Below, piece by piece: positions 6,733-40,400 of a stretch of 64,000 bases of DNA; position 1 is the first letter of the stretch; each line of letters opens with the position of its first letter. The stretch is from Dermatophagoides farinae (Eukaryota; Arthropoda; Arachnida; Sarcoptiformes; Pyroglyphidae): assembly GCF_024713945.1 (NCBI RefSeq), contig NC_134681.1:3088001-3152000 (forward strand), written 5' to 3'. A program made the translations under genes and the position numbers. The notes under the pieces were generated by a model, which worked only from the letters and a program-made list of their open reading frames with translations, was not told the DNA's origin and did not search any database.

Positions 6733-8223
6733 ATGCCTGAAATAATTAATCTTCAAGTTGGCCAATGTGGTAATCAGATTGGCGTCAAGGTATTCAAATT
6801 GATTGTGTTTTGTTAATTAATTGAATCATGTTTTCTTAATTTGATAGTTTTGGGAAGTGATTACCGATGAACATGCTATTAAATCCGATGGTAGCTGTGA
6901 TAGTGATGGTTATCGTTCACAATTGGATCGTAAAAATGTTTATTTTAATGAAGCATCGAATGGGAAAATATGTTCCACGTTCGATTATGATTGATTTAGA
7001 ACCCGGCACAATGGATGCCGTACGTGCCAGTAGTGTTGGTCAATTATTTCGACCAGATAATTATATATTTGGCGACACCGGTGCTGGTAATAATTGGGCC
7101 AAAGGACATTATACTGAAGGTGCTGAATTTGTTGATGACGTAATGGAAAAGATTCGAAAAGAAGCAGAAATTTGTGATTGCTTACAAGGATTTCAATTTT
7201 CACATTCATTGGGTGGTGGCACTGGTTCCGGTATGGGTACGCTGTTAATGTCGCGTATCGGTGAAGAATTTCCCGATAGAATGCTTGCATCATTTAGTGT
7301 ATTACCATCGAAAAAAGTATCGGACACAATCGTTGAGCCATATAATGCTATATTATCGATTCATGAATTGATTGAAAATACAAATGAAACATTCTGCATT
7401 GATAACGAGGCGCTTTATGATATTTGTAATCGTTCATTGCGTATGAAAACACCGACATATAATGATCTTAATCATCTTATATCAACGACAATGTCCGGAG
7501 TGACGACCTGTTTACGTTTTCCTGGACAATTGAATGCCGATTTACGGAAATTGGCAGTAAATATGGTACCATTTCCACGATTACATTTTTTTATGTCAAG
7601 TATTGCACCACTTACATCAACTGGTTCACAATCATTTCAAGCACTTAATGTGTCTGAATTAACGCGACAATTATTTGATGCCAAAAATTTAATGGCTGCT
7701 TGTGATCCACGTCATGGACGTTATCTTACCGTTGCTGCACTATTTCGTGGCCGTATGTCAATGAAAGAAGTTGATGAACAAATTGTGAACATACAGAATA
7801 CGAATAGTTCACATTTCATTGAATGGATACCAAATAATATTAAAACAGCTGTTTGTGATAAACCACCACGGGGTTTAAAAATGGCTGCAACATTTTTATG
7901 CAATTCTACCTCCATTCAGGAATTGTTTCGCCGTATTTTTGAACAATATCAATGTAAGTGAATGATTAACAACTATTTCGCTTTTAATCTGACGTTTTTT
8001 TTCATTTCATTCCATTTTTGTAGCCATGTTTCGACGAAAAGCATTTCTTCATTGGTATACTGGTGAAGGGATGGACTTGATGCAATTTGATGAAGCCCAT
8101 TCTAATGTTCATGATTTGATCAGTGAATATCAGCAATATCAAGAATCAAAAGCTGATGATGATATCGATGAGGATTATGATAATGATGATAATTTAGAGA
8201 TTATTCAACCCAACTCTAATTGA
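6733..8223 (+). CDS. Divergent beta-tubulin with an apparent +1 frameshift
   Basis: Exons 6733-6789, 6848-7953 and 8024-8223. The first intron falls after codon 19, a position I recall as conserved in animal beta-tubulins. Visible landmarks: Q-C-G-N-Q-I-G, the GTP-binding loop [20 protein letters not shown], the beta-specific stretch [23 protein letters not shown] and E-Y-Q-Q-Y-Q. With one extra base discounted the length is 453 residues, normal for the family. Exon 2 changes frame at 6962-6968: the upstream frame meets a TGA at 6992-6994, while the rest is open in the +1 frame. Beta-tubulin pairs with alpha-tubulin in microtubules. Two oddities: the N-terminus reads M-P-E-I, not the conserved M-R-E-I, and the tail is Asp/Asn-rich and ends I-I-Q-P-N-S-N. 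A tissue-restricted isotype, a young pseudogene, or an assembly error on an ordinary gene are all possible. Confidence 0.88.
6962..6968 (+). other. Apparent 1-nt insertion in the beta-tubulin gene
   Basis: At GGGAAAA the reading frame of residues N-E-A-S-N-G-K switches by +1 to Y-V-P-R-S, exactly where beta-tubulins read on without a gap. No GT-AG intron can be placed here. One surplus base in either homopolymer explains it. Confidence 0.8.
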
Positions 8224-8633: not shown

Positions 8634-11600
8634 CTAGTAGATGTCCGCAGCATTGTCATAAATGTTATTAGACATCATCAATAATTGTGGATGTTGTTGT
8701 TGTTGTTGATGATGATGATTTGGGCCATTAATACTACCACTGGATGTGATTCCAACACCACCACCGCTACCACTACCAATAGTTGCAGCTGGAGTTTGGC
8801 TTAAACTTTTCATACTTCGACGTTTCAATGATTTTGTCGATTTTTGACATGATAAAACAAATTTAAATTCTTCACAAAGATCTTTTGGAAATGTTGTCTA
8901 TAGAGAGAAAGAGAGAGAGAGAAAAAAACAAAAGACAATAGTTTAAGGATAGAATCGGATCGAATCGAATCAATATTACCGAATCATTTGTCGAAATCCT
9001 GGTTTTAATAACAAATTCACATATCCCAAAGATTAATGCAGCCAATGATCCAACGACGAGTACAACGAAAACACCACCAAGATTTTTCAAGCCCAATTCG
9101 TTTAACGGCGTTGATGGTGCCGCAACACATTGACCACCACCTTTTTGTTTCCACCAACGATCTTTTAGTTGTTGTAATACACCGGTCTCTTGTAGTTTCA
9201 ATATCACTTCAGATAATGATGCACGAATTTTAGCACCTTTTCGTGTGGCTACTCCATATCCTTTTGAATCGAGTAAACCACCAACCTGTGTTAGATTACA
9301 ATAACGTTCAGTAATATATTCAATCGTTGCCGATTCCATAAAGAATGCATATTTTCCATTTTGTTTTTCAACCCTTTCCCGGCCCATTGCATTGCTTGGC
9401 ATCAATACTTCAGGATGTTGTTCCATAAATTCAGCCATTTTTCTATATAATGGAATTTTCGAATTCTAATAACAAAAACAACGAAATGTTTGTTGTATAA
9501 ATTAATCTAAGAAACCAATCATTTCATTAACATACGGCAAAAAATTTATGTGTAGCACCATTTTTTAGACAACCATATTTGATTTTTGTTTGTTGTGCCA
9601 ATTGTTCTACATTTTCAAATGGAAATGGCACTTTTTCCACGGTTAAAAATGCAGCTAAATTGGCTGTGTATGATGAAACGATGATTAAAGTGAAAAAATA
9701 CCAAATGGCCGAAATGATTCGTGTACTCATTGCTCTTGAAGATAAAAAAAAAGATTGAAATTCTTAAATATACAGAATTTTGAATGAACTTACTTGGGCG
9801 CAACATCTGAACCTTGTTGCATCAATGAACCAATAATACACCAGAAACTATTACGCATATTACATTGATTTTCGAGAACAGGCTCATGATGTTTACATGG
9901 ATGTGGATCACACCATTCGTACGGAGTGAAACGTCCAACATAGAAAAATATCAATGATATACTGACAATTGCAGCTAATAAACAAATCCAAACGACCATA
10001 GAAAATGGTGATAAAAATGACCAAAGGGATGTTTCTTTCGTCGTCGGTTTTTTATAAATGATCGATATACCAGTAGACATGAATGGATAGGTAAAATCAA
10101 CAGCTAGTTCACGATTTGAATTAATCGTCAGATCAGCAACGGCAATATCGGCTTCACTACGTATTACTTCACCAATCATACCATTCCATTCATTTGTCGT
10201 GGTATTGATTAATGCACCATATGCACCATCTTTTACAAGATTGATTTCAAAACGAACGTTCAAGGAATTTTCCAATTTCTTTCATCATATCGACCACAAA
10301 TCCTTCATAACGATCATTACCATGTAGTTCTTTTGAACTTTTTGCATTCATAACGAATGGATCATTCAAAACAGTTGTAACACGAATCAATGGCATCTTT
10401 GCCTGACTAGGTAGATGATAATACCAACGTTCAGTTTTATGTACAACGCCATTTTTCCAGAATCCAATTTGTTCGAAATCATTTTCAGTCATTGTGACAA
10501 TATCAAATGTAAGATTCGCGCGGAAATCCGGATTCATCGAAACCAACCCAACCGGTAATACCTTCGGTAGCAACTTGTCGTATATAATTGATTAATGTTG
10601 TACCATATTGCCATGCATCATGATTGGATTGACAATCAATCGATATTGTATCAAATTCATTCAATTCTAATAATGCCGTGGTTAAGATTTCCATTCCATC
10701 GAATATCATGGCCGATATACTCTATAAATTGAATATAGATTTTAGCAAACAGAATCGATGAAAAAACTATTGGACAAACCTTCACATGTCTAGCATTGGG
10801 ATCGATCAGATCTTTACCACCAACGAATCCAAGATTATTTTTCGCTGTTGTCGTCGTCGTTGTGGTCATTGTGACATATTTATTCCAATTTTCCATATTT
10901 GGATGTTGTTCTTGCACAATACGTAATGATGTAATATTTGTGCGCGAATGGCGAAAATCTTCTAAATCTAATGTATGTAGGTCCAGTGATGTGATTAGAT
11001 ATTTATGTTTTTCACTTAAAATACCAACTTGTTGTGCTTGTTTCATTACTTCAATAATATGTTCGGTTTTAACATCTAATACAATGTGTAAAAATTCTGT
11101 TTGTTTCACTTGCCACAATATTTCACGATAAGGTTGATCTGGTTGCAATTGAAATATTCGTACTTCCCAATTTTTATCATGTGCTTGTTTCAAATATTGA
11201 CTAAAATGTATAATACTTTCAGAATCTTCATAAACAATAACGAACATGTGCCAATCAAGCGTTTCGATCAAGTCACCAAATACTTTGGACAATATACTAT
11301 GATGTGGATACATGTTGATCGAAAGATCAGTGCGGGAACCAAAATCCACCAACATCCTGGCTTCAATATGTGGTATTTCGTAATTTTCACAAATTGATTG
11401 TAATTGTTGAGCACCATAAGCATTAAATGGGCCAAATATAGCTACTGGTGATCTTTGTAGCAGTTGACAAACATCACGATAAACAAGAAATGCATTCTCA
11501 ACATCAACAATTTTGATTATTGGTTCAAAACTGCTATTGTTATGTCCTAAGTTTGTCGAAAAACGTTCAATAGCCATATGGAATGCTTGTTGTTCTTCCA

Positions 11601-25400: not shown

Positions 25401-28400
25401 ACTTACGTGTATCCGTCTGTATTAATGGTAATGTATCGGTTGATGGTGTTGGACAAAATACACCGGTTGGTGAACGTGTTGCATTCGTTGTCTGTGATTT
25501 ACCATACATTGTGAATACACAAAGATAATGGCCATTCTCTGTCATTGGTAAATTATCGATGACAAGATTGAGCTATATTTTTTTTTGCAAAAAAAAAAAT
25601 TGAAAATTGAATGATTATGTTTTGTTTCATCACCAATTCACGCACACACAGACACACACATACCGTTCGTGTTGTTGTTCGTTGTATTTGAGCGGGATTT
25701 ACATTTGAAATTGTTGTACATTTACCGCTTTTATATGAAAGCCAATATAACGGATCGGATGTTGCTTCGGCACAATCATTTCGAATGGAACATCTAAAAT
25801 GAACGAAAGTTAGAAATTCAAACCACATATCTAAAGAGGAAATATTAAAACAAAAACATACTTATTTTCTAATGAACACCAACCACAATATGGATCACGT
25901 GCACCAAGACAGTCCATACAAGTACGATGTTGATGACATTCTTGTACTTTGACCATTGTCACTCGCCTGGTTGTCATGACATAAAGATAACCATGAGCCA
26001 CGAACATATCCGGATTGATACGATGTCCTTGTTGTATGACGATATCGGCAAATTCATATGCTTTTATCGATACACGTGATTGATCCATATTAATCTGGTG
26101 ACGTTGTCCTTCAATCACTACTTTTTTCAAATGTCCATCATTGGTACCCAAAAATGCGACTGAATAATCATTAGTTGCAGTTGCAGCCACTGATGTAAGT
26201 AGCACATTATCAAACATTATTGCTGGTTCGGTTTCAATTGGATTTGTTGTTCCTAATGGTTGATTGACATCCATACCACAAAAATCTTCTTTTATTTGTA
26301 CTTGCTGTATTTTCCATTAGAAAAAAAAGAGAGAAAGAAAAATTCAAATTAGTGAAAATGAAAACCAAATGAAAAATTGGAATGAAAGCAAAGGATTGAG
26401 AAAATGGAAACAAATTGAATTAACAAACAAAGGAAAGAAAGAAAAAAAACCATTATGAAAATCATCCTATTGTAGAATGGATATCATGAAGAGAGAGAAA
26501 GAAAAATAGAAATAATCAAGTGGATTGATTCTCGAGAAGATTCTCTCTCTCTCTCTCCGTGTGTTAATGCATTCATTCTAGTTACAGTTGTTGTTGTTGT
26601 TGTTGTTGTCGTTGAAACTCTTTTTCTTTCTCTCTCAAAACGATATATATTGTTCCTGGAACAAAAAACGTGTTGTTGTTCATCTTAATATAAACAGTAG
26701 AGAGTGAAACACTTGAAAAATAATTGTAATAATTAACCCTTTGCTCTCTCTCTCTCACTTTTGCTGTCCGGGTATATTTTTTTATCCAAAAACAGTGAAA
26801 AATACAAAAGTCTGTACTTTCAAATGTAATGAGTCGGGTGATGTATGTTTGTTCGTTTTTAAATTGGTGAAAAACATACACCGATTACACACATAACATC
26901 CGAACATTTTTTTTTTTTGGAAATTATACAGACAAATTATTATTATTGTTATGCGACAACAATAATAAAAAAACAAACAAACGTGGAACAATTGTGAATT
27001 GAATATTGAATGAGTGAGTGTGGGTGAACGAATGAAACAAAACGGAAAAAAAATTCTGGACCAATCATAAAGTGACATTATGATCGTGGTGAGGCTGGTT
27101 CAATGGGTAGCAAGAAAAAAAAATTTATTGCATATTCAGCAAATGATTTTGTTTATAGAATATATAGAGTATAGAACGTACGATGGACATCAAAAGAAAT
27201 GAAATGAAATAACCGAGAATAATAATTTTTCTGCTGACATCAATAAGAACAAGAAGAAAAAGAATTTATCCAGAAATTCTTGTGTGTGTGTGTGATGATT
27301 TTTTCTATTCACTCAATTCTTTTGTTTGCTATTTGCTTCTCTGCAAATCGCGTGTCATCAAGGATTATCGAGTGCTTTTTTCTTGCCCCAGCCGTTTTTA
27401 TTTGCCTATTCTTAATCGACATTCTAAAAGAGTGTTCCGTACCAAAAAAGTAAAAAATTTTCATTTTGTTTGATTTCCAATGAAACAATGACGTAAAAAA
27501 CCGTAATCGTATGAATGAAAATGGATGATGAGGATGGTGATGTTTCCAAATATTTTCAAATATATAGAGAGACACGACGAGGGTATATTATTTTTGAGTA
27601 TCTAATTCTGTACACAAACACACACACATATTGGACATTATCTTAGCGCTGGTCAATGGAAATGGCTGGCTGCTTTTATTGAAAACTTTTTGGTTTTCGA
27701 TTTTTCGTTTTTGATGATTAAGACAAGGATGATGATGTTGATGATGATCACAAATCGAAATGTTAAAATTCTAATGATGATGATGACCAACGATATATAT
27801 ATATAGTCATAGTCATCATTGGGTAATAATAGTGAAATTCAATTGAGTAAGCAAAAAAAAAAGGGAAAAAGAAGATAGAACTTTCTCTCGGTGGCTTTAT
27901 CGTCGTCGTTATATCGTGACAATAGCGCAATGAAAAACAAAGCAAAATTTTCTATCCAAATGATGATATTTAAAATAAGAATCCTGATGGAAAAAAAAGA
28001 AAGAAAAGAACAAAAATCCAATAATGTCATCAACGACAACATTCATTTTCATTTCATTCTTGATCATCATCATCATCATCGTCATCAAAACCATAATAAT
28101 AAAATAAACAACAACAACGAAAAAAAACGCAAGAAGAACAAAAACAAAATAACAAAACAAAAAACAAAACAGAAAATTTGAAATCTTCGTCACACACACG
28201 ATAATGGAAACATTTTTGGAGTCTGTATGATGATGATAATTCGTTTAATTATAAATCGATTTTTTTTTGTTTTGTTTCACACATTCTTATCATCATGAAT
28301 GTATTGCTTTGAAAAAAGAAACAACAAAAATGATGTGAACAAGAGAATTCAATATAATTCAAGAATGGAATATTATAATCAATGTAAATGGATAGATAGA

Positions 28401-31400
28401 TAGAACAAACGAAAAAAATTTTAGGAAATTTTCCCGGAAATTTTTTTGCCCATAAATTTTTAGGATAAAAATTTTTAGGGAAATTTGGTTTTTTTAAACC
28501 ACGCGCCGGCGGCTACTGCACTAGTTTAAACTGGAAAATATTAGGTATATGTGTGTGTGTGAGTGTGAAAATTTCTCTTTTACATAATATCCAGGTATGG
28601 GTGATTATTTCACATTCATTATGATCATCATCACCATAATTCACACACAATAAACAGACATAGACATTTACTAGACATATACCAATTCAAAAAGAAGTAG
28701 CATCAATGCAGACGATGTTCGAATTCGACCAGTCCATCATCAATGGTATAAATACCGACATTCGACAACATCAAACTGTGGTAATTTGGTGGTTTAATGA
28801 CAGAAGAAAAATATACAGTTTTAAATTTAACGTGAAAAAAAACTTTTTGTTCACCTGTATCGGATTTCAATCATCTATTTTTTTCTGTTTCGAGAGAGGT
28901 AAGAAAATTTTGACAAATACCCAAGTTTTCATCAATCTAAACATATAATTTTCACCATCTTATTTGGTGATGTTATCTATTTTGAAAAGAAGAAATTTGA
29001 AACCACGAACGAAGATGAAGTTCAAACGAATTTTGGGTCGATTACGACATTCAATTCGTCGTCGTCGTCGCAATCATGGCTACTATAATGACGAAGATAA
29101 TTGTCAATTACAAAATATATTTGAAAACGAACACTTACAAGATGGATTAATTTTTCCTAAAGAAGAAAAACAAAAAGTTCCACCGAAACCGAAGCCTATC
29201 ATTACTGATGATAATGATAAAAAGGGTTTGCAAATTGTTCAATTGAAAGAACAACCACATCATTGTTATTATCGTCATTGTTCAGAAAATTATCGATTAT
29301 TCATTCGTGATCGTTATTCAAATGAATCGTTTCTGATCAATGGTGGCTCAGATATCTCATTGTTTCCAAATGAGATTCAATTTTGGAATCATTATCGATC
29401 GAAAGAATTGAAAAAATGGCAAAAACAATGCAAAAAACAGTACGGCGTTCAAATCAATGGTGCCAATATGGTATTTGGCGAAAGCCTTATTGGCACTGGT
29501 GATGATTGCAAGAAACAAGAACAAATGAAAATCACTGGAAAATTTTTCATTGCATTGGATTTTGGTTTTGGCCATGAATTTGTTTTTGAATTTTATCTTT
29601 GTGAAACTGAGTACCCGGTGATTGGTGCAGATTTTCTTGCTCATTATCATCTACTGCCGGATTATCTTTGCCAACAATTGATTGATTTTGATTATCATCG
29701 TAAAGTTGATTGCCAACTATTTCCTACAGTAGTGGATCGACGTAATGTACGTAGTTTGGTGAACATTCGTCAACCACCAAGCGAAATATGAACGAAACAC
29801 GAAAATTTTTCATCACAATCGCGTGGCCTTTGAAATTTGATATCGATCGATCGAATGATTTTTTTTCAATTTCAATTCAATTCATGTCAATTTTTATATT
29901 CTTGACCTCTAGTAGTTTGTAGTTACAATAATAAAAATCAAAATTCAAAATTTATGTGTCAAGATGATTTTTTAATAAAAAACAAATTCTTTTTGAAATA
30001 TTTATGTTCACTCCATTCGAGTAGTCGTGTTTTCCCTGCACTAGAATAATGCGGAAATTAAATGAATTGTAAACAGAAGAAACGAACGAACGAACCAACC
30101 ACCACCTCTTTCCTTCCTCGAGTTTGTTCTCGGTTTCTGAATATTGAGAATTGCTTTTTTTAGTTAGCTTTCTCTCGCTCTCTTTTTAAATCAAGAGGCT
30201 GACGATTGAATGAATAAAAATGAAATGAAGCCAACTGGAATAATTGTCAATTCGAGTGAAAAAATGCATAGAACCTGTATTGTTGTTGTTGCTGTATTGC
30301 GCCGATTAAAGAGAATTTGCCAGATACAACACAGACACACAGTGAAAAAACGATTCTTGAAACTTTTTCTTCTTCTTCCTCAAAGCTCTAGACAGTGATT
30401 CTGATCAAAGAAGAATAAATGAAATTATTGAAAAAAAAATAAAAAGAAAAAAGTCTTCACGAGACGTGTTAAACGTAATAACGATGAATTTTCTTTCTTC
30501 GAATAATTTTTAGTCTCACTATTAATTTAATATTGATTGACATGCGAAAGTAGGCAAAAAAAAAACGACAAACGCACGAACACATAAACACACACAAAAA
30601 AAATGAGAATTCTAAATCAATTTCATGTGTTCATTTTGGTCTAAGTATGTATCACAGCAAATGAAATAATAAAAAAAAAGTTTCAATGTAAAAAAGAAAT
30701 TTGATCCAAAAACATAAGTTGAAGCTCCGTTTGTCAAATTCATATGTACAACAACAATAATTAATTAATTCAATTCACATATAACGTAATAAAATGGAAT
30801 ATATATAAATAAACGAAAACCTCGATTTCGGGATTTCAGGATTTCGGTTCGTTTTTTTTTTATTCTGGTGAAGGACATAAAGCAAATAAAGCTAATAAAT
30901 AATGAAACTGTTAATATGTATGAATGGGAATTGAATAGAAAAAAAAACGTAGTAAAGTAAATACATTCTATCTACAATCCACCACAACCACTGCTAGATT
31001 GATTAAAAATAAACGAAATTGATCAATGTTGATCAATGATGATTGAGTGTATGGAATATTAACCAATTTCAATGTTTGATTATTTGTTTTTTTCTCAACA
31101 TATAGAATTATGCTTGAATCAAAAACTCATTATTGATTCATATGTTTAATTTCTTCACTTTCATTCATTACGGTAGTAGTGCCGTTTATATATCATTGAT
31201 TTTCAATGATCCATACTCAAAAACAAGAGTAAAAAATTTGGCTAATTTGATTTTCATTTGATACAAAAATCACAGTTGTTGTTGTTTTTGTTGTTGTTCT
31301 TAAATTGCAATTGATTTGACTATTTCGTTTGTGTGCGTTATGTAATATAATAATATGATCCTTGTCGAGCTGCAATGACAATCAATGGTCAATGTGGATC

Positions 31401-34400
31401 GTAGTTTTTATAATAATAACTGTGTTGTTAGTGTGTAACCGAATAAAAAAGAAATATAACACACACACAGAAACAGAAACAGAAAAAAGCAAGATTTGTT
31501 TTCGACTTTGAAATATAAAGAAAATGATTTTTCTTTCCTTTTTCTGTTTTCGCTCATTTTCGACATCGACATAATCATCATCATCATCATCATCGTGCCC
31601 GTGTATCGAATATAGAGATTATCGAATAAGTTTTCTATTCCCGTTTTTTTGGGTATTGAATTCATGTCTGTATTTGTTCTGTTTCGAGCAAAAAGAGAGA
31701 GAGAGAGAGAAGAAAAAACGATCCAGACCCAAAACAGCAACAAACTTTGAATCAACATTTTTTCGGAAAACATGGAATCAACCAGAGAAATTTGAGCGAA
31801 TAATATAAAGTGTGTGTGTATGTGTGTGCATGTGTGCACCAATTGGACAAATCAACACAACGAAAAAGAAAGAGAGAGAGAGAAACCTAATTATTAGCGA
31901 AACCAAAAAACGAAACAGAGAATGGGAAAATAAATATCACAAGGAAATGAATAAAAATAACAAATCCGAGACAGAGAAAAAAAAATCTCGAATAACAAAT
32001 TAATCAATAATAACGATAATAATATTGAGCAGAATCGAAAATGGCAAAATCAAATCAAATTCGAATCATGGTCTGGTTCATGAATTTCGAAATGAAATGA
32101 AAGAATGATCCAAATGTGAATGTGTGCTATTTATTTTTTTTTTTGTTGCATTGCATTCATTAAACGATGCCGTTTGTTTTGTCAGGATCATGGAATCTTT
32201 TTTTTCTGTTTGTCTAATGAATATTCCATCATTCATTTCACTTAATGATGTTTTGAATGTTTCCAAAAAAAATCATCAATCGGATTGAAGAAACAAAAAA
32301 AAGAACGAATGTAATGATGATATAGCTTCAGGGCTATTCATATAGAATGGAAAAAAAATTTCACCCGGTTTTTTTATTCATTTAACAACACAAATCTAGA
32401 CATCCACCAAAAAAAATCATTCATTTCAATTCATTAATTCAACATTTCACAATAATAATCGATCACAGAAAAAAAACCACAGACAACAAAAAAAAATTGA
32501 GGCTAATCGACGAAACAAAAAAAAAACCGAAAGAGCAAAGCTTCAAAAAAATCATTATCATTCAATTCAATTCAATTCGATTTGATTCGATTTTTCGTCA
32601 TTTCATTCACATCATCATCATCATTTTCGCGGGTAAATGAAAAAGTTACGATCGGCCCGGAAAAAAATTCGACGGATATATTGATTTGATTCACTAGAAA
32701 TAACAGAACCGATCAGGAGAAAAAAAACCATTCCATTCAAAAGCTCCAAGTTTACGAGAACATTTTCTGTTGGATCAAAAAAAAAAACAGAATAAAAGAA
32801 AAAAAACAAAATCAACAAAATTGTGACAAGTTTTTCTTTGGCGACGACCCCATTTGACAACCGAAACACATAAAAAAATCAATATCATAAATCCCATTCA
32901 AAGAGTCAAATCAAATAATAAAAAAAAGGTTTGAGTTTTCGGTGCTTGATCTTTTTTGATACTACACATACACTATCATCATCATCATTTTTTCAGGCTA
33001 ATTTATTTGTTCTTGTCGTCGTTTATCGTCCATCACCCGTTTATTGTGTGCGTGGATGATGGAATGAAAACAATAACGAAAAAAAAACCGAATAATTGTT
33101 AATCAGAATGTTGAACAAATTGGCCGCATGCGTATAGAGAGAAATATAAAAAAAAGAAAGTTTTTTTTTCATCATTTATCGATTCGATCAAAAAGTGTGA
33201 TTGACACGAATCGAATCGATAAATAGAAAAAAAAATTAAACCGGGTATTGTTTGATTTGTCGGAAACATTTTCTGTGTTTGTTTCTCGTTTTTTTTTCAT
33301 GGTGAAAAAAAATTCACAAACACCGTGGTAATTTATCTCACATCGAATGAATATCTTGTTGCCTTTCTGTTGTTACACTTTTATTGGAAAAAAATATGGA
33401 AATAACTTGATTAGACTTTATTTTTTATTTTGATCAAGATTATTATTGTTATTATTAAGGAAGAGGATCTCTGTTTCCACCAAACGATCCAGGATCAACA
33501 ACAACAACAGTGAAAACAATTTGGAAAAACAATTCTAAACACACACACACACGGAATTGAGGCAATGAACCAAACCGTATGTGATAAAAAAACTTTTGCA
33601 CATGAAACACATGAAAAGTCAATGTGTATTTGTCGACTAGAATACAAACGGCCATATTATTGTTATTTTGGTATTCGCAGTTGTTTTTTTTTCAATTTTG
33701 AATATACCATTTGTTTGTGTGTCACAGCTGAACTGAACGATAGTAGTGGGGAGGTGGTATATACACATTATTTTCATTGTTTTTCCACATAATATGGTTA
33801 TTAAATTTAATTTAATTTTTCAAAAAAAAAAATTATGATAATCAATCGAACCAAGGAGAAACAACACAAAAAAAATTATCATCCACAAAATTACGATTAA
33901 TTGATTGATTATCAATTGATGAAAAGTGGATTTGGAAATCGAGATCTCGTCTCAAAACACTATCCAAAAAAAGATAAAATTTTCAATTTCAATAATAACA
34001 AAAGACTTGACTAATCAATCAAGAAGGATTATAAAATGATCATCATCATCATCAAAAGCTCAAAGAATGATAATTGATGAAAAAAAAATTGAAAACATTT
34101 TTAACCATTCATAAGTGCGATTGATTCTTTTTTTTGTGGTCAACAAAATTTGTTTCTCTAACTCTGGAGAAAAAAAATGTATTCCATAATCATCAAAAAT
34201 GTCCACAATTGTGTCACCATCTTCATATTGATGGCCATCATCGTTACGCAAGGTGAGTGTTGTAAATTGTTTTCAATTTAAAAATTATAAAAAAAAAATT
34301 TCATTTCATTTACAAAACACAGTACAACAAGCAAAAGCAGCCACCACAACAGCCGAAGAAGATAAAATAAAACAACAATATCTTGATGAGGCTGAAAAAA

Positions 34401-37400
34401 TTGATGAAAAAGCAAGAAAATTGATTGAAAAATTTGAAAATAATAAAAATATCCAAAATCAAACTGATTTAGATGATCAAATATGGCGTTTGAAAACGGA
34501 AATAATTGAATTGGAAAAATCGATACGATTCATGAAAGAAACCGATATACGACAAACTGATCAATGGAATTTTTCAATCAAACAATTGAAAAAACATGAA
34601 ACCAATGTCAACGATATGATTGAAATGCTACAACATCATTATAATTTGGCTTTTTCCCTATTATTGGATCGAAAATTATTAGCCATCACCATTGTAATAA
34701 TCATTGTTTCATCAACATTTTTTTGATGAATTGACAAAATAAATAGCTCTTATTATAGAGAGAAAAAACAAAGATTACTCAAAAAAAAAAAAATTTTTTT
34801 GACATTGGATTCCGGTTCATTAATGATTACTAATCAAATAAATAGATAAGGAAAGGTGTTTGATTGAAAAGAGATTGAGTGTGATTGTCGTTGCTTGCTA
34901 TGTATGATATTGAAATCGTATGCGTATGCGTGTGTGTGTGTGTGTGTGTGAGTGTATGATCAATAAATCTGATAATCTCATCCATCAATAGTTGGTGAGA
35001 TAAATAAATCACTACCACTCAAATACAAGATCATTCTACTATTTGCAACCATACATTAAACATCATCAAAATCATAATTATTTTAAAAATTTGTGAGAAA
35101 AAAATGATGAAAACAAATTTCATTTTGGTGGCCACCGCCATAATTATGGTCATTTCATTGGTTACAGTCAATGCTGCCAATGGTAAGTGTGTAAGAAAAA
35201 AATTCTTGTTTTTTTCAAACTAAAATTTTTATTGTTTACCCAAATCAAAACCGAATACCCCTCAAAAAAAAGGAGAACAAAAAATGAAAGAAAGACAAAA
35301 AAAATTACTCGATGAAGCTAATGATATGGTGAAAAAAGCAAATGACTGTTGGAATGAAAAGGGTAAAGGCAAATTTGATGAAACAACATCAACATATAAA
35401 GAATATTATTTGCAAGTAATGGAAATTTCGAAATATGTTTACGATATTGAAAAAACAACTGATGACAAATATCTTGATATTTATGAGAAAGATATGCATA
35501 ATGATGAGGATATATTACGTGGTCGAATGTCTGATTTAGGCTGTTCAACCGGTGGTGGTACTATTGCAATCAATCTCAACACAATGACCGCTATGATTGC
35601 TATTTGTATGATGATGGTAATGAATTTTGTATTTTAATTCTGAACAGAAATATCTTGAAACTTTAAAACTGAAAATTAAAATAAAATTTTCCTTTATCGT
35701 TTTATAATGTGATGACGTTGTTTAATTTCAAAAAAAAAAATCGAATCAAACTCAGATTTATAATCAGAACTTGAATGTTGATGTTCTATTGATGTTATAT
35801 CAGATTACATTTTTCATATTAATCTCCAAGCATCATAAAAAGAATATAATATAATATATACATCGATGAAAAATGAAAATCACAGCCATGATAATAATCC
35901 ACATCAACGAAAAAAATGTAGAAAAAAATAGTGATTCACTTCACTTCATCCTCATTTTAATTAGCCAAAGAGATTTTCGAAAAAAGATTGGATCCAAAAC
36001 GAAAAAAAAATCCACAAATAATCATCTATTGGAACTATCAATCTCGATGTGATCGGTATCTAGTATCTAGTGTCACTATGACGACGACTATTATTACATA
36101 CCAGAAATGAAAATGCTAATACTCGCTTTGTGTGTTTGTTAGTCTGGGTGCGTATAATAAAAAAAAAATGCAATATAGATCTTTATCCTAATAATAACCT
36201 GGGCTGCAATAATAATAATAAAGATGAAAGTTAATCTCTCTCCTTTTTTGTAATGAATGTCGTAGTCGTCCTAGTCGTTATTTGAAAAACTGGATAAGAA
36301 AGATTGAGAACCACAAATAGCAACAACAACAACGACAACAACAAAATGAACTGAAGAATCGAGAAATTGAATGTATTCCATATTTTTTTTCAATAAAATG
36401 GAACATGTGTTTTCTCTCTCGTGCACATTTGATGTAAAACTTTTAAATGTTTGAAACGTGTCGACTATAATACGTGTATATATGTGTAATGTTCATCAAA
36501 CAGCAACTAGAAAATCGGATTTTCATTCATTCATATTTTTTTTTCTTTTGATTCTAGCTTATTGACACAAATGTGAATAATGAAAAACAAAACGAAAAAA
36601 CATTGAAATTCCGAATTGAGAAAAAAAACAGACATAGAATTTCAGTCACAATCACACACACACACACACACATAATGCTTCTTCTATTTGGTTTTCAATT
36701 TCATCATCATCACCATACATAATATCCATGATGATGACAATGGGTTTTTTCTCATTTCCCATTTTTAACAACAACAACAACAACAGCAGCAGTAAAAATG
36801 ACTTTTTTTTCTGTCATTGGAATTCATTTCCTGTATGAAAATAAAGCTCAAAGCTCAACAAACAAAAAACACAGACACAGCAGCAAAAGAAAAATATATT
36901 CTTCATTCTTCATTACATTTTCTTTCTCTCACAGCGTGTTGATAATGTTTATATTTCACAGTGAGAATATAAATAAATACCAATATCAGACACACACACA
37001 CACACACACACACACACGACAGGATATTGTTATTCTACCTGATTTAATTCAATTTGAAATGTTATATTGTATTGTGATGTGATGGATGAGAATAAAATGG
37101 ATGATGGTATTGTGTGTGTGTGCAACATAGCAAAAGAAAAAACCAACCAACTCACTCGCTCGAAATAAAACATTTTCATCCATCCAACTTTAGTTTTTTT
37201 TTAATAGTTACTAACACATAGTGGGGGGTGTCAGATAGGTAGGTAAAAAGTTGTATTTTCATTTTAGTTCCAACAACAAATCGCTCTCCTGATTCCTGTT
37301 TGATTTTTTTTTTTTTTTTTGGTAACATCAAGCCATGATAAAGCAAAAAAAAAGTGCACAGCATTTTGTAATATTTATATAGGCATCTTGTAATGATAAA

Positions 37401-40400
37401 TCAATGATACAACGTCCAAATAATTATTGTAAACAAGTGGAAAAATTTGAAAATGTAAAACTTGCACTAATAATTCAAAAACAACAACAACAATATTAAT
37501 GCAAAGATCAATTTGTTGTTCATTCATGTAAATTCATCGTGTTGTTGTTGGATATGAAAGAATTTAATACCAAACGCACACACACACAAAAGCACGAGTG
37601 CATATCATCATATCATGTAAACCAGGCGTCGGCAACCTGCGGCCCGCGGGCCGCATCTTCCATAGAGCTCTATGGGAAATGCGGCCCGCGGGCCGCAGGT
37701 TGCCGACGCCTGATGTAAACCAATAAAAACCAAACAAATATATAGCGGGCAACATCAACCGAAAAAAATACATGATAATAAATCATTGAGTGAAGACAAG
37801 GACTGCTTAGTTTGTTCTGTGTTTTGAAATAATGAAAATCATGGCTTTTTTTGAAAAAACAGACAGAAAAAAGCACTATACTAGACGTTTGAAGATTATC
37901 ATCATCATCATAATGATGAGAATAGGGATATCGATTGTAGTGTGACAGTTAATTTTCACTCATTCTTTTTCTCAAACAACAACAACGGCGACAACGAAAA
38001 CAACAAAAGGTAATTGAAAAAAGAATCGATAGAATGGGAAAAAATCGTGAAAATTAATAAAAATTGAATTATTTTGAATGTGAAAATTATTTTAGCAAAA
38101 TGTAGAAAAGAATTTCACAACTCACCGTAGGAACACATTTCTGCACGATGTTGATGAAATCCAATCCTTGCATTCCATTGCCATTGAAACAATGTTGGAT
38201 ATTTTTCGTAAATTGCCGATGAATGGTCGACAATGGATATACGCATAATGCAGAATGACTAGCAGGTCGTGGATCTTCCATGGTTTGTTCATCCACGGAA
38301 CGTGCAAATACCACATATAAATGATCATCATCATATCGTACGCCCGTAATATTGGCCAATTTCAATGATGGCCGTCCAATGAATGCAGCTTGTGCCAGAT
38401 TGAAATGTTTTTGTTGATGGCCTTGATGACGACATACCAGTGGTACTTCGGTATATGAATAATAATCCGGATCATTTTGACAAATACGCACTATTTGAGC
38501 AAATGAAGAAAAATAAAACAAATCAATGAATCAATCAGTTAACCATTACATTGATACATTACCTAATTTAGACATAAATGCCGATTGACCAGTATTACGT
38601 TTTTGAACGGTCAAAAAATAGCTAAAACCACGTGAATGAAATCCATAAATATATGTGATTGGATAACGATCACGTGCATATGCATTTATGATCAAACGGG
38701 TCCCGGTGCTAACACCAACCAATGCCAATTGGAATAAATCTATGAAAGAAAATAGAACAAAAAGAAAACGAATTAATAAATTGTGGATTTAGAAAACACA
38801 ACATCACAAATGAACTCAATTGAAATCCAATTCAATCGAATCGAATTCAACTAGCTGGTTTTAGAGTATTTTTTTTAATGATGTCGTCGTTGATCCAATA
38901 ATAATAGTGTTTTTTGAAACACAAACGAAAAAAAAACTAAAATAAAATTCAAGGATCATCATAATGATCGTAATAACGTTTTTTTTTTGTTTGCAATATT
39001 TGGTAAAAAATAATAAAAGTTAGCAAAGACTTACTTGTTTCAAATAATGATCTGGAACTAACAACGGGTAAATCGGATCGATATGATCCGGCGGTATAAG
39101 TGGCACCAACATATAATACTTGTTTATGTGGATCTGGACCCGGAGCAATGAATGCAACCGTCGATGCGGTGGCATTGTTCGCCACTACCGGTTCTTGTGG
39201 TTGATCAATGATACGCGAGATATTATATAAACTGTGAGCGGTACATGCACCTTGAAATAATGAACCACACGATATAAGCCATTGATGCATTTGATCCAAA
39301 ACCAATGCTTTATTGTAATAATTTGATAAACGCTTCTGCACCTCTGGCGCACAACCTTTCGATATTGGACAATCATTCGAATCTTCATATGGACCCATGG
39401 TAATTTTTTCCAATAATTTCAAACGTAAATTTAATTGATAAATCGTATTCACACCACCGATATATACAAAACCAATTGTTTCATTGATAACCATATGTGA
39501 AAAATAAATTTCCGTATTCGGTTCTTCAAAATATGTATAATTTAAATCGATAGCCCTATTAATCGATGATGTCAAGCCATTATTATTACCACCACGAATC
39601 AATGATAGTGATTGGTGTTGTTGTTGTTGTTGCTGCTGCTGCTGAGATGATGATCTATCAGCACCAGCACCAGAACCGCCGAAAAGACCATAACGATCAA
39701 ATAGGCCACGTTTAATAATTGTGTGATTATTATTATCATCATCATGATGATGATGATGATGATTCAAACATTTATTGCCCATATCATTCCAATCGCCATT
39801 TTCATATGCCATAACCAACATTGTTGATGATGATGGAAATAATTGCTGAAATGATAATATCCAAATCATTGTAATCATCGTCATCGCTGCTGAACTTTTT
39901 GTTTGTTGACGACGATTAATGATTTCAGCATTATGATGATGATGATGATGATGATATTTATTATTATTTTTCAATTCTGAGAATTGAAATTGCCGTTTTC
40001 GTTGATGATTTTGATGATCATGATGATGACTGGATTTATTATTTAACATTGATAAATAATATTGATATCGATATCGATGATCAAGATCAAATGATGTATG
40101 ATGATGGCACCAGATGAAAATATTGACAATTTTCATTAATAAATAATTTAAATTATTATTAATGATGATCAAGTAATAATGAGAATAGGCATTGATAAAA
40201 ACAACACATTTACAAAGGTAGAAAAATGTCGATAATGATGATGAAAAGGTGTTAATTAATGTTTTCATCATCATGATTATTATTATTATTGGGCACACTG
40301 TTATTGGTGAAATTGGCTTCATTTGCATAATCATTTTAAATGTTTGCAATGGCCAAAATAATAATTTCTTTATCGATCGATCTTTAATTTGATGATGATG

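Follow-up and report, generated by a model that had tools for sequence, protein, structure and literature searches.

We regard the 273-codon open reading frame (ORF) at positions 28970..29791 on the plus strand of the window, the 64-kb stretch of Dermatophagoides farinae DNA analysed here, as probably coding for a domesticated, catalytically dead retropepsin-like protein of a host gene. A domesticated pseudoprotease had already been suggested for this locus in the preliminary description, and this reading gained weight from the lack of a second copy, the host-like codons, the conserved columns retained in the protein, and the simulations of neutral decay. The features concerned are as follows:

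28970..29791, plus strand: single-exon coding frame of a retropepsin-like pseudoprotease, 273 aa (ORF, simulation, codon scores, HMM)
28970..29089, plus strand: basic arm, residues 1-40, with a net charge of +16, a pI of 12.0, and a run of five Arg (computed from the sequence)
29282..29719, plus strand: retropepsin-like domain, from about residue 105 to 250 (alignment; E = 2.6e-25 with the HMM built on five Gypsy proteases)
29339..29347, plus strand: N-G-G replacing the catalytic D-T/S-G, codons AAT GGT GGC (alignment, HMM)
29387..29530, plus strand: remodelled stretch, residues 140-187, with Lys-rich residues inserted ahead of the flap, which itself is longer by about 16 residues (alignment)
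29621..29638, plus strand: I-G-A-D-F-L, the second conserved retropepsin element, intact (sequence, alignment, HMM)
28747..28754, plus strand: TATAAATA, candidate TATA-like core promoter, one of three such sites on the plus strand of the intron (weak, by consensus only)
28896..28903, plus strand: GAGGTAAG, candidate 5' splice site for an intron in the leader, the sole one on the plus strand of the intron (weak, by consensus only)
29930..29935, plus strand: AATAAA, candidate poly(A) signal, weak as the intron contains 37 of them (consensus)
25834..26316, minus strand: plexin exon covering the end of Sema and PSI, one flank of the host intron (Pfam Sema, 6.7e-11; PSI, 4.6e-9)
38090..38530, minus strand: plexin exon covering Sema, the opposite flank of the host intron (Pfam Sema, 5.3e-6)

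The frame and its surroundings

The frame proved to be intact and nested in a plexin intron as initially described: it is open throughout 28970-29791, belongs to a stop-to-stop run of 280 codons, and is flanked by the two plexin exons on the opposite strand. The longest open run in 900 simulated introns (Markov models of orders 2, 3, and 5, n = 300 each; 11.8 kb with the composition of the intron) comprised 244 codons. A chance ORF was ruled out by these simulations together with the match to the Gypsy protease HMM. The basic N-terminal extension mentioned in the same description is the arm of residues 1-40 listed above. No match to Rfam was found within positions 26000-39000 of the window.

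In-frame ATGs are present at 28970 and 29015. Considering TATAAATA at 28747 and GAGGTAAG at 28896, the true start may be the ATG at 29015, which would give a protein of 258 aa. The AATAAA noted near the frame was located at 29930, and another one at 29974. The promoter-like site, the splice-like site, the ATGs, and AATAAA would form a compact nested gene of ~1.2 kb, a picture to which we assign little weight; an out-of-frame ATG at 28797, between TATAAATA and the start, is a small point against it.

Two more open frames with positive coding scores were found in the same plexin intron (34232-34726 and 35224-35637 of the window, plus strand). Both appeared by eye to be charged and to have hydrophobic C-terminal tails, and neither matched a Pfam family above the cut-off. 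The former frame, subjected to a genome search as a query, yielded itself alone. Separately, a 366-aa frame at 6861-7961 (plus strand) of the window is tubulin-like, as recognized by eye only. Elsewhere in the genome, one locus matches the allergen Der f 2 at 241 bits and Der p 2 at 222 bits over 108 aa, in keeping with D. farinae; two further loci belonging to that family show far weaker matches to the allergens of both species, as expected of paralogues.

Homology to Gypsy proteases

We built an HMM from five Gypsy proteases of the same genome, from which the window protein was excluded, and searched 279 frames of the window with it. ORF 28970-29791 was matched at the E-value given above, and the match falls in two stretches separated by extra residues of the window protein. 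None of 500 shuffled window proteins was reported against this HMM at E <= 10. The core of the window protein is 34-40% identical to those of the five nearest Gypsy proteases (L002-L006 in our locus list), and the blocks R-L-F, G-S...S...P, I-G-x-D-F-L, and LID occur in the same order in the window protein and these same-genome Ty3/Gypsy proteases. The stretch LLPD...LID is retained, and the motif I-G-A-D-F-L, already pointed out in the preliminary description, stands at 29621-29638 with the hydrophobic-hydrophobic-Gly pattern. Compared with L002-L006, the window protein bears additional residues before and at the flap, as well as the basic N-terminal arm.

A profile including the window protein matched Retroviral-like aspartic protease 1 chains in the PDB with an E-value of about 2e-6 and, weakly, DDI1-type chains (E-values of about 0.02 to 1.8). 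The window protein alone retrieved no PDB chain at E <= 10 in phmmer, and no Pfam family, RVP and its kin included, at E <= 10. The Pfam retropepsin models are regarded as insensitive here because, among the five nearest Gypsy proteases, L003 alone reached the cut-off of RVP. As two runs of AlphaFold2 from the single sequence gave mean pLDDT values of 41 and 44, we infer the retropepsin fold from homology only. No relative was found in the IMG/VR and GTDB genomes scanned.

The catalytic site and the flap

The replacement of the catalytic D-T/S-G held up on alignment: N-G-G is encoded at 29339-29347, and the catalytic Asp is missing. Asn124 occupies the position of the catalytic Asp in the Gypsy protease alignment, whereas Asp is present in all of the 11 Gypsy protease loci examined in the same genome. 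Four of the five nearest loci possess D-T-G and the remaining one, L006, possesses D-C-G; six further loci, which are part of 16 additional reverse transcriptase (RT) loci, possess either D-T-G or D-S-G without exception. Two codons differ between N-G-G and D-T/S/C-G, and thus one base error is insufficient as an explanation; a sequencing error at the catalytic codon is unlikely for the same reason, as judged from the assembly-level sequence. As for L006 itself (1300-1761; the protease of the element in L030), the D-C-G triplet is found in a 1473-codon open frame accompanied by identical repeats.

Residues 140-187 differ from the Gypsy proteases before and at what we take to be the flap. Retropepsins are homodimers, in which one Asp is contributed by each chain, so that no cleavage is expected of the mite protein. 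A catalytic loop without its Thr may make for a weaker dimer, which is a point against the reading we favour. HIV-1 D25N serves as the inactive form of the protease in PMC13411501.

Copy number and Gypsy elements in the genome

Searching the whole of the single assembly with both protein and DNA queries revealed no second copy. The protein search retrieved the window gene itself and five Gypsy loci, and the DNA of 28500-30000 matched itself alone in a search that skips simple repeats. Many near-identical copies with LTRs, named in the preliminary description as an outcome that would speak against domestication, were thus not seen in either search. The earlier remark that no gag, RT, integrase, or LTR lies nearby also agrees with our results, as no remnant of these parts was found in the 64-kb window with the five nearest Gypsy copies as the sole queries. 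When these copies were compared in pieces with the window by tblastn, only protease matches (29249-29734) appeared before E = 0.15, and the best match obtained with their four LTR-like repeats was of 41 bp with E = 0.022. Among the repeat families listed (20 of 24), none forms a long pair of direct repeats enclosing the gene. Altogether, the window gene is present in a single copy in this assembly and has lost the parts required for mobility.

All but one of the five nearest Gypsy copies (L026, L027, L028, and L030), each found once, bear very short direct repeats of 182, 119, 111, and 135 bp, respectively. The two repeats of each pair are 99.5-100% identical to one another and enclose open frames. 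We take these repeats to be LTRs, and the insertions appear to be recent. The published repeat table of D. farinae in PMC11074847 gives far less, recording only 8 LTR elements and 370 bp. The fifth copy, the truncated Gypsy fragment L029, with 592 open codons and no direct-repeat pair found, keeps the catalytic DTG, and its protease is 85% identical to that of L004/L028. The RT search of the genome gave at least 28 matches at E <= 0.001, including five with stops and one that sits in a 252-codon frame. Recognizable decayed Gypsy copies are few in this genome.

Codon usage and constraint

The synonymous codon usage of 17 host segments was modelled against Gypsy and noncoding models. The host segments comprised five plexin, one tubulin-like, and three glutamate-receptor-like frames, plus eight stop-free trypsin matches; the tubulin-like and glutamate-receptor-like frames were recognized by eye, and most of the host frames in the window run from stop to stop and thus take in some intron. 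The ORF scored +0.037 in the host/Gypsy comparison and +0.100 in the host/noncoding comparison. On the host/Gypsy score, 15 of the 17 host segments were positive, with 8872-9465 (-0.024) and trypsin L034 (-0.188) as the exceptions, and all of the 12 Gypsy frames were negative, six of which were outside the model building (the nearest at -0.035). The score of the ORF was attained by none of 4000 versions recoded under noncoding usage and by none of 4000 recoded under Gypsy usage, while 2.8% (host/Gypsy) and 8.8% (host/noncoding) of the versions recoded under host usage scored equally or lower.

The share of CGT among Arg codons in the ORF (11/21) is to be compared with 0.55 in host, 0.26 in Gypsy, and 0.16 in noncoding sequences, although CGT is also frequent in two of the six Gypsy frames that were outside the model building (22/42 and 29/60). 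The GC3 of the ORF, 0.238, is intermediate (0.197 for host, 0.291 for Gypsy, and 0.301 for noncoding sequences). Taken by themselves, residues 1-97 were neutral in synonymous usage (host/Gypsy, -0.004) and tended towards Gypsy in whole-codon usage (-0.080), whereas the domain of residues 98-250 scored +0.046. The shift of the ORF towards host usage is not complete.

In the alignment, the window protein keeps 23 of the 29 columns that are invariant in the five Gypsy proteases and carries one of their letters at 26 of the 74 variable columns. The six invariant columns lost are the catalytic D and five with mild substitutions, namely L to I, A to G, I to M, A to C, and S to A. As a recently severed fragment would keep conserved columns as well, this retention counts only in combination with the codon evidence. 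Neutral change without indels was simulated in 17 Gypsy pieces of 273 codons, 100 times for each piece; with 0.1 changes per site the frame was still open in 0.9% of the runs, and with 0.2 in none of 1700. The earlier supposition that a dead fragment should have decayed is borne out in that even slight change (0.1 per site) adds stops. The re-equilibration of codons would require more change than these levels. Much synonymous change, an intact frame, and conserved positions together would be the pattern left by purifying selection, an indirect argument that presumes an ancestor with Gypsy-like codons. Codon usage, conserved columns, and the neutral simulation indirectly indicate constraint at the protein level following the loss of mobility.

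Proposed history and alternative explanations

We propose that a Ty3/Gypsy protease domain gave rise to the gene, which lies antisense in the plexin intron and would be maintained for its protein. With Asn and Gly substituted for the catalytic Asp and Thr/Ser, and with the flap enlarged, the protein most likely acts other than by cleavage, and a dimer of the retropepsin type may bind a peptide or protein partner in the altered cleft. The strongly basic N-terminal arm may direct the protein to nucleic acid or the nucleus. That the scaffold positions are kept and the catalytic loop and flap are changed would suit a binding role, and the charge of +16 over the first 40 residues would fit a nucleic-acid or nuclear role. 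We infer the expression of the gene and the fold, dimerization, ligand binding, and arm role of its product; our confidence in any particular function is low.

The dead subunit could instead be a dominant-negative restriction factor, which pairs with active Gypsy proteases or Gag-Pol, or masks cleavage sites, and blocks maturation. Such a role would suit the conserved scaffold combined with the altered active site and flap, as well as the genome itself, in which, among the five nearest Gypsy copies, four have open frames, bear near-identical repeats (111-182 bp, 99.5-100%), and were each found once; moreover, engineered HIV-1 protease monomers were reportedly trans-dominant in the work of Babe et al. 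in 1995. We consider this role unlikely, however, as the core identity of only 34-40% makes pairing with Gypsy proteases doubtful and the low copy number of Gypsy elements may stem from siRNA or deletion instead. It is similarly improbable, in our estimation, that a captured and disarmed transposon protease shields a piRNA-less mite by poisoning the protease activation of recently active Gypsy families. To our knowledge, a restriction factor of this kind, if true, would be the first natural one against transposons that is based on a protease. Dust mites are reported to be without piRNAs and to use siRNAs against transposable elements (PMC5805368), and additional layers of transposon control could thus pay. 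The link to transposon control is testable, as this genome, reportedly piRNA-less, harbours recent-looking, single-copy Gypsy elements, and dsRNA soaking or feeding is effective in D. farinae (PMC5805368).

An ordinary relic, namely a Gypsy fragment whose catalytic residue disappeared after truncation and whose frame is open by luck, would be in keeping with the truncated open fragments in this genome, such as L029 (592 codons) and the RT match in the 252-codon frame, and the small number of RT matches with stops (5 of at least 28) suggests that open Gypsy copies are the rule. Nevertheless, none of the Gypsy copies found in the genome is close to the gene (40% core identity at most), the codons of the ORF lean towards the host unlike those of L029, and neutral change of 0.1 per site leaves little chance of an open frame (0.9%). 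In addition, the loss of the catalytic Asp implies that some change came after the release from an active element. Codon usage, the conserved columns, and the simulation led us to discard a decaying relic as the preferred explanation, and we judge it unlikely. Two other explanations seem very improbable. Because Asn occupies the position of the catalytic Asp and Asn-Gly is the dipeptide most prone to deamidation, N-G-G might turn into D-G-G and act as a slow, self-timed aspartic protease; nevertheless, D-G-G is devoid of the Thr/Ser in the catalytic loop, the flap is altered, and deamidation yields much isoAsp. Equally remote is an old host gene akin to DDI1 or ASPRV1 that was not derived from Gypsy. 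ASPRV1 and, weakly, DDI1-type chains match the profile including the window protein, but no PDB chain is retrieved at E <= 10 by the window protein alone. Its strong matches are to the Gypsy proteases of the mite genome, and they include the R-L-F and LLPD...LID stretches.

Comparison with known systems

Regarding the window gene as a probable domesticated pseudoprotease, we compared it with the known genes bearing retropepsin domains. Gypsy proteases, both the nearest ones and the more distant Ty3/Gypsy proteases of the same genome (L043-L048), reside within polyprotein frames and possess D-T/S/C-G, whereas the window gene is solo and possesses N-G-G. Mammalian ASPRV1 (SASPase) is likewise a host gene with a retropepsin domain of the retroviral type. 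Nevertheless, ASPRV1 retains D-S-G in the alignment and is reported to be a self-processing enzyme, in contrast to the window protein without Asp, and the nearest kin found for the mite gene are Gypsy copies within the mite genome. PEG10, RTL1, and RTL3 are also host genes derived from LTR elements and equipped with a protease domain (PMC11011659); unlike the solo window gene, they are tied to gag/capsid genes, and PEG10 is reported to keep Asp-Ser-Gly. The RT and RNase H of RTL1, which PMC11011659 describes as likely inactive but structurally conserved, provide a parallel in another domain.

Among the open-licence papers listed in our searches, none describes an arthropod retropepsin that is both domesticated and catalytically dead, and the domesticated retropepsin genes that we met (ASPRV1, PEG10, RTL1, and RTL3) are all mammalian. 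Pseudoproteases such as iRhoms are reported to be protease relatives devoid of catalytic residues and retained for non-catalytic roles. iRhoms have the Rhomboid fold, which is unrelated to retropepsins. A solo, dead retropepsin in an arthropod, if true, would show that the retropepsin fold can persist for binding alone.
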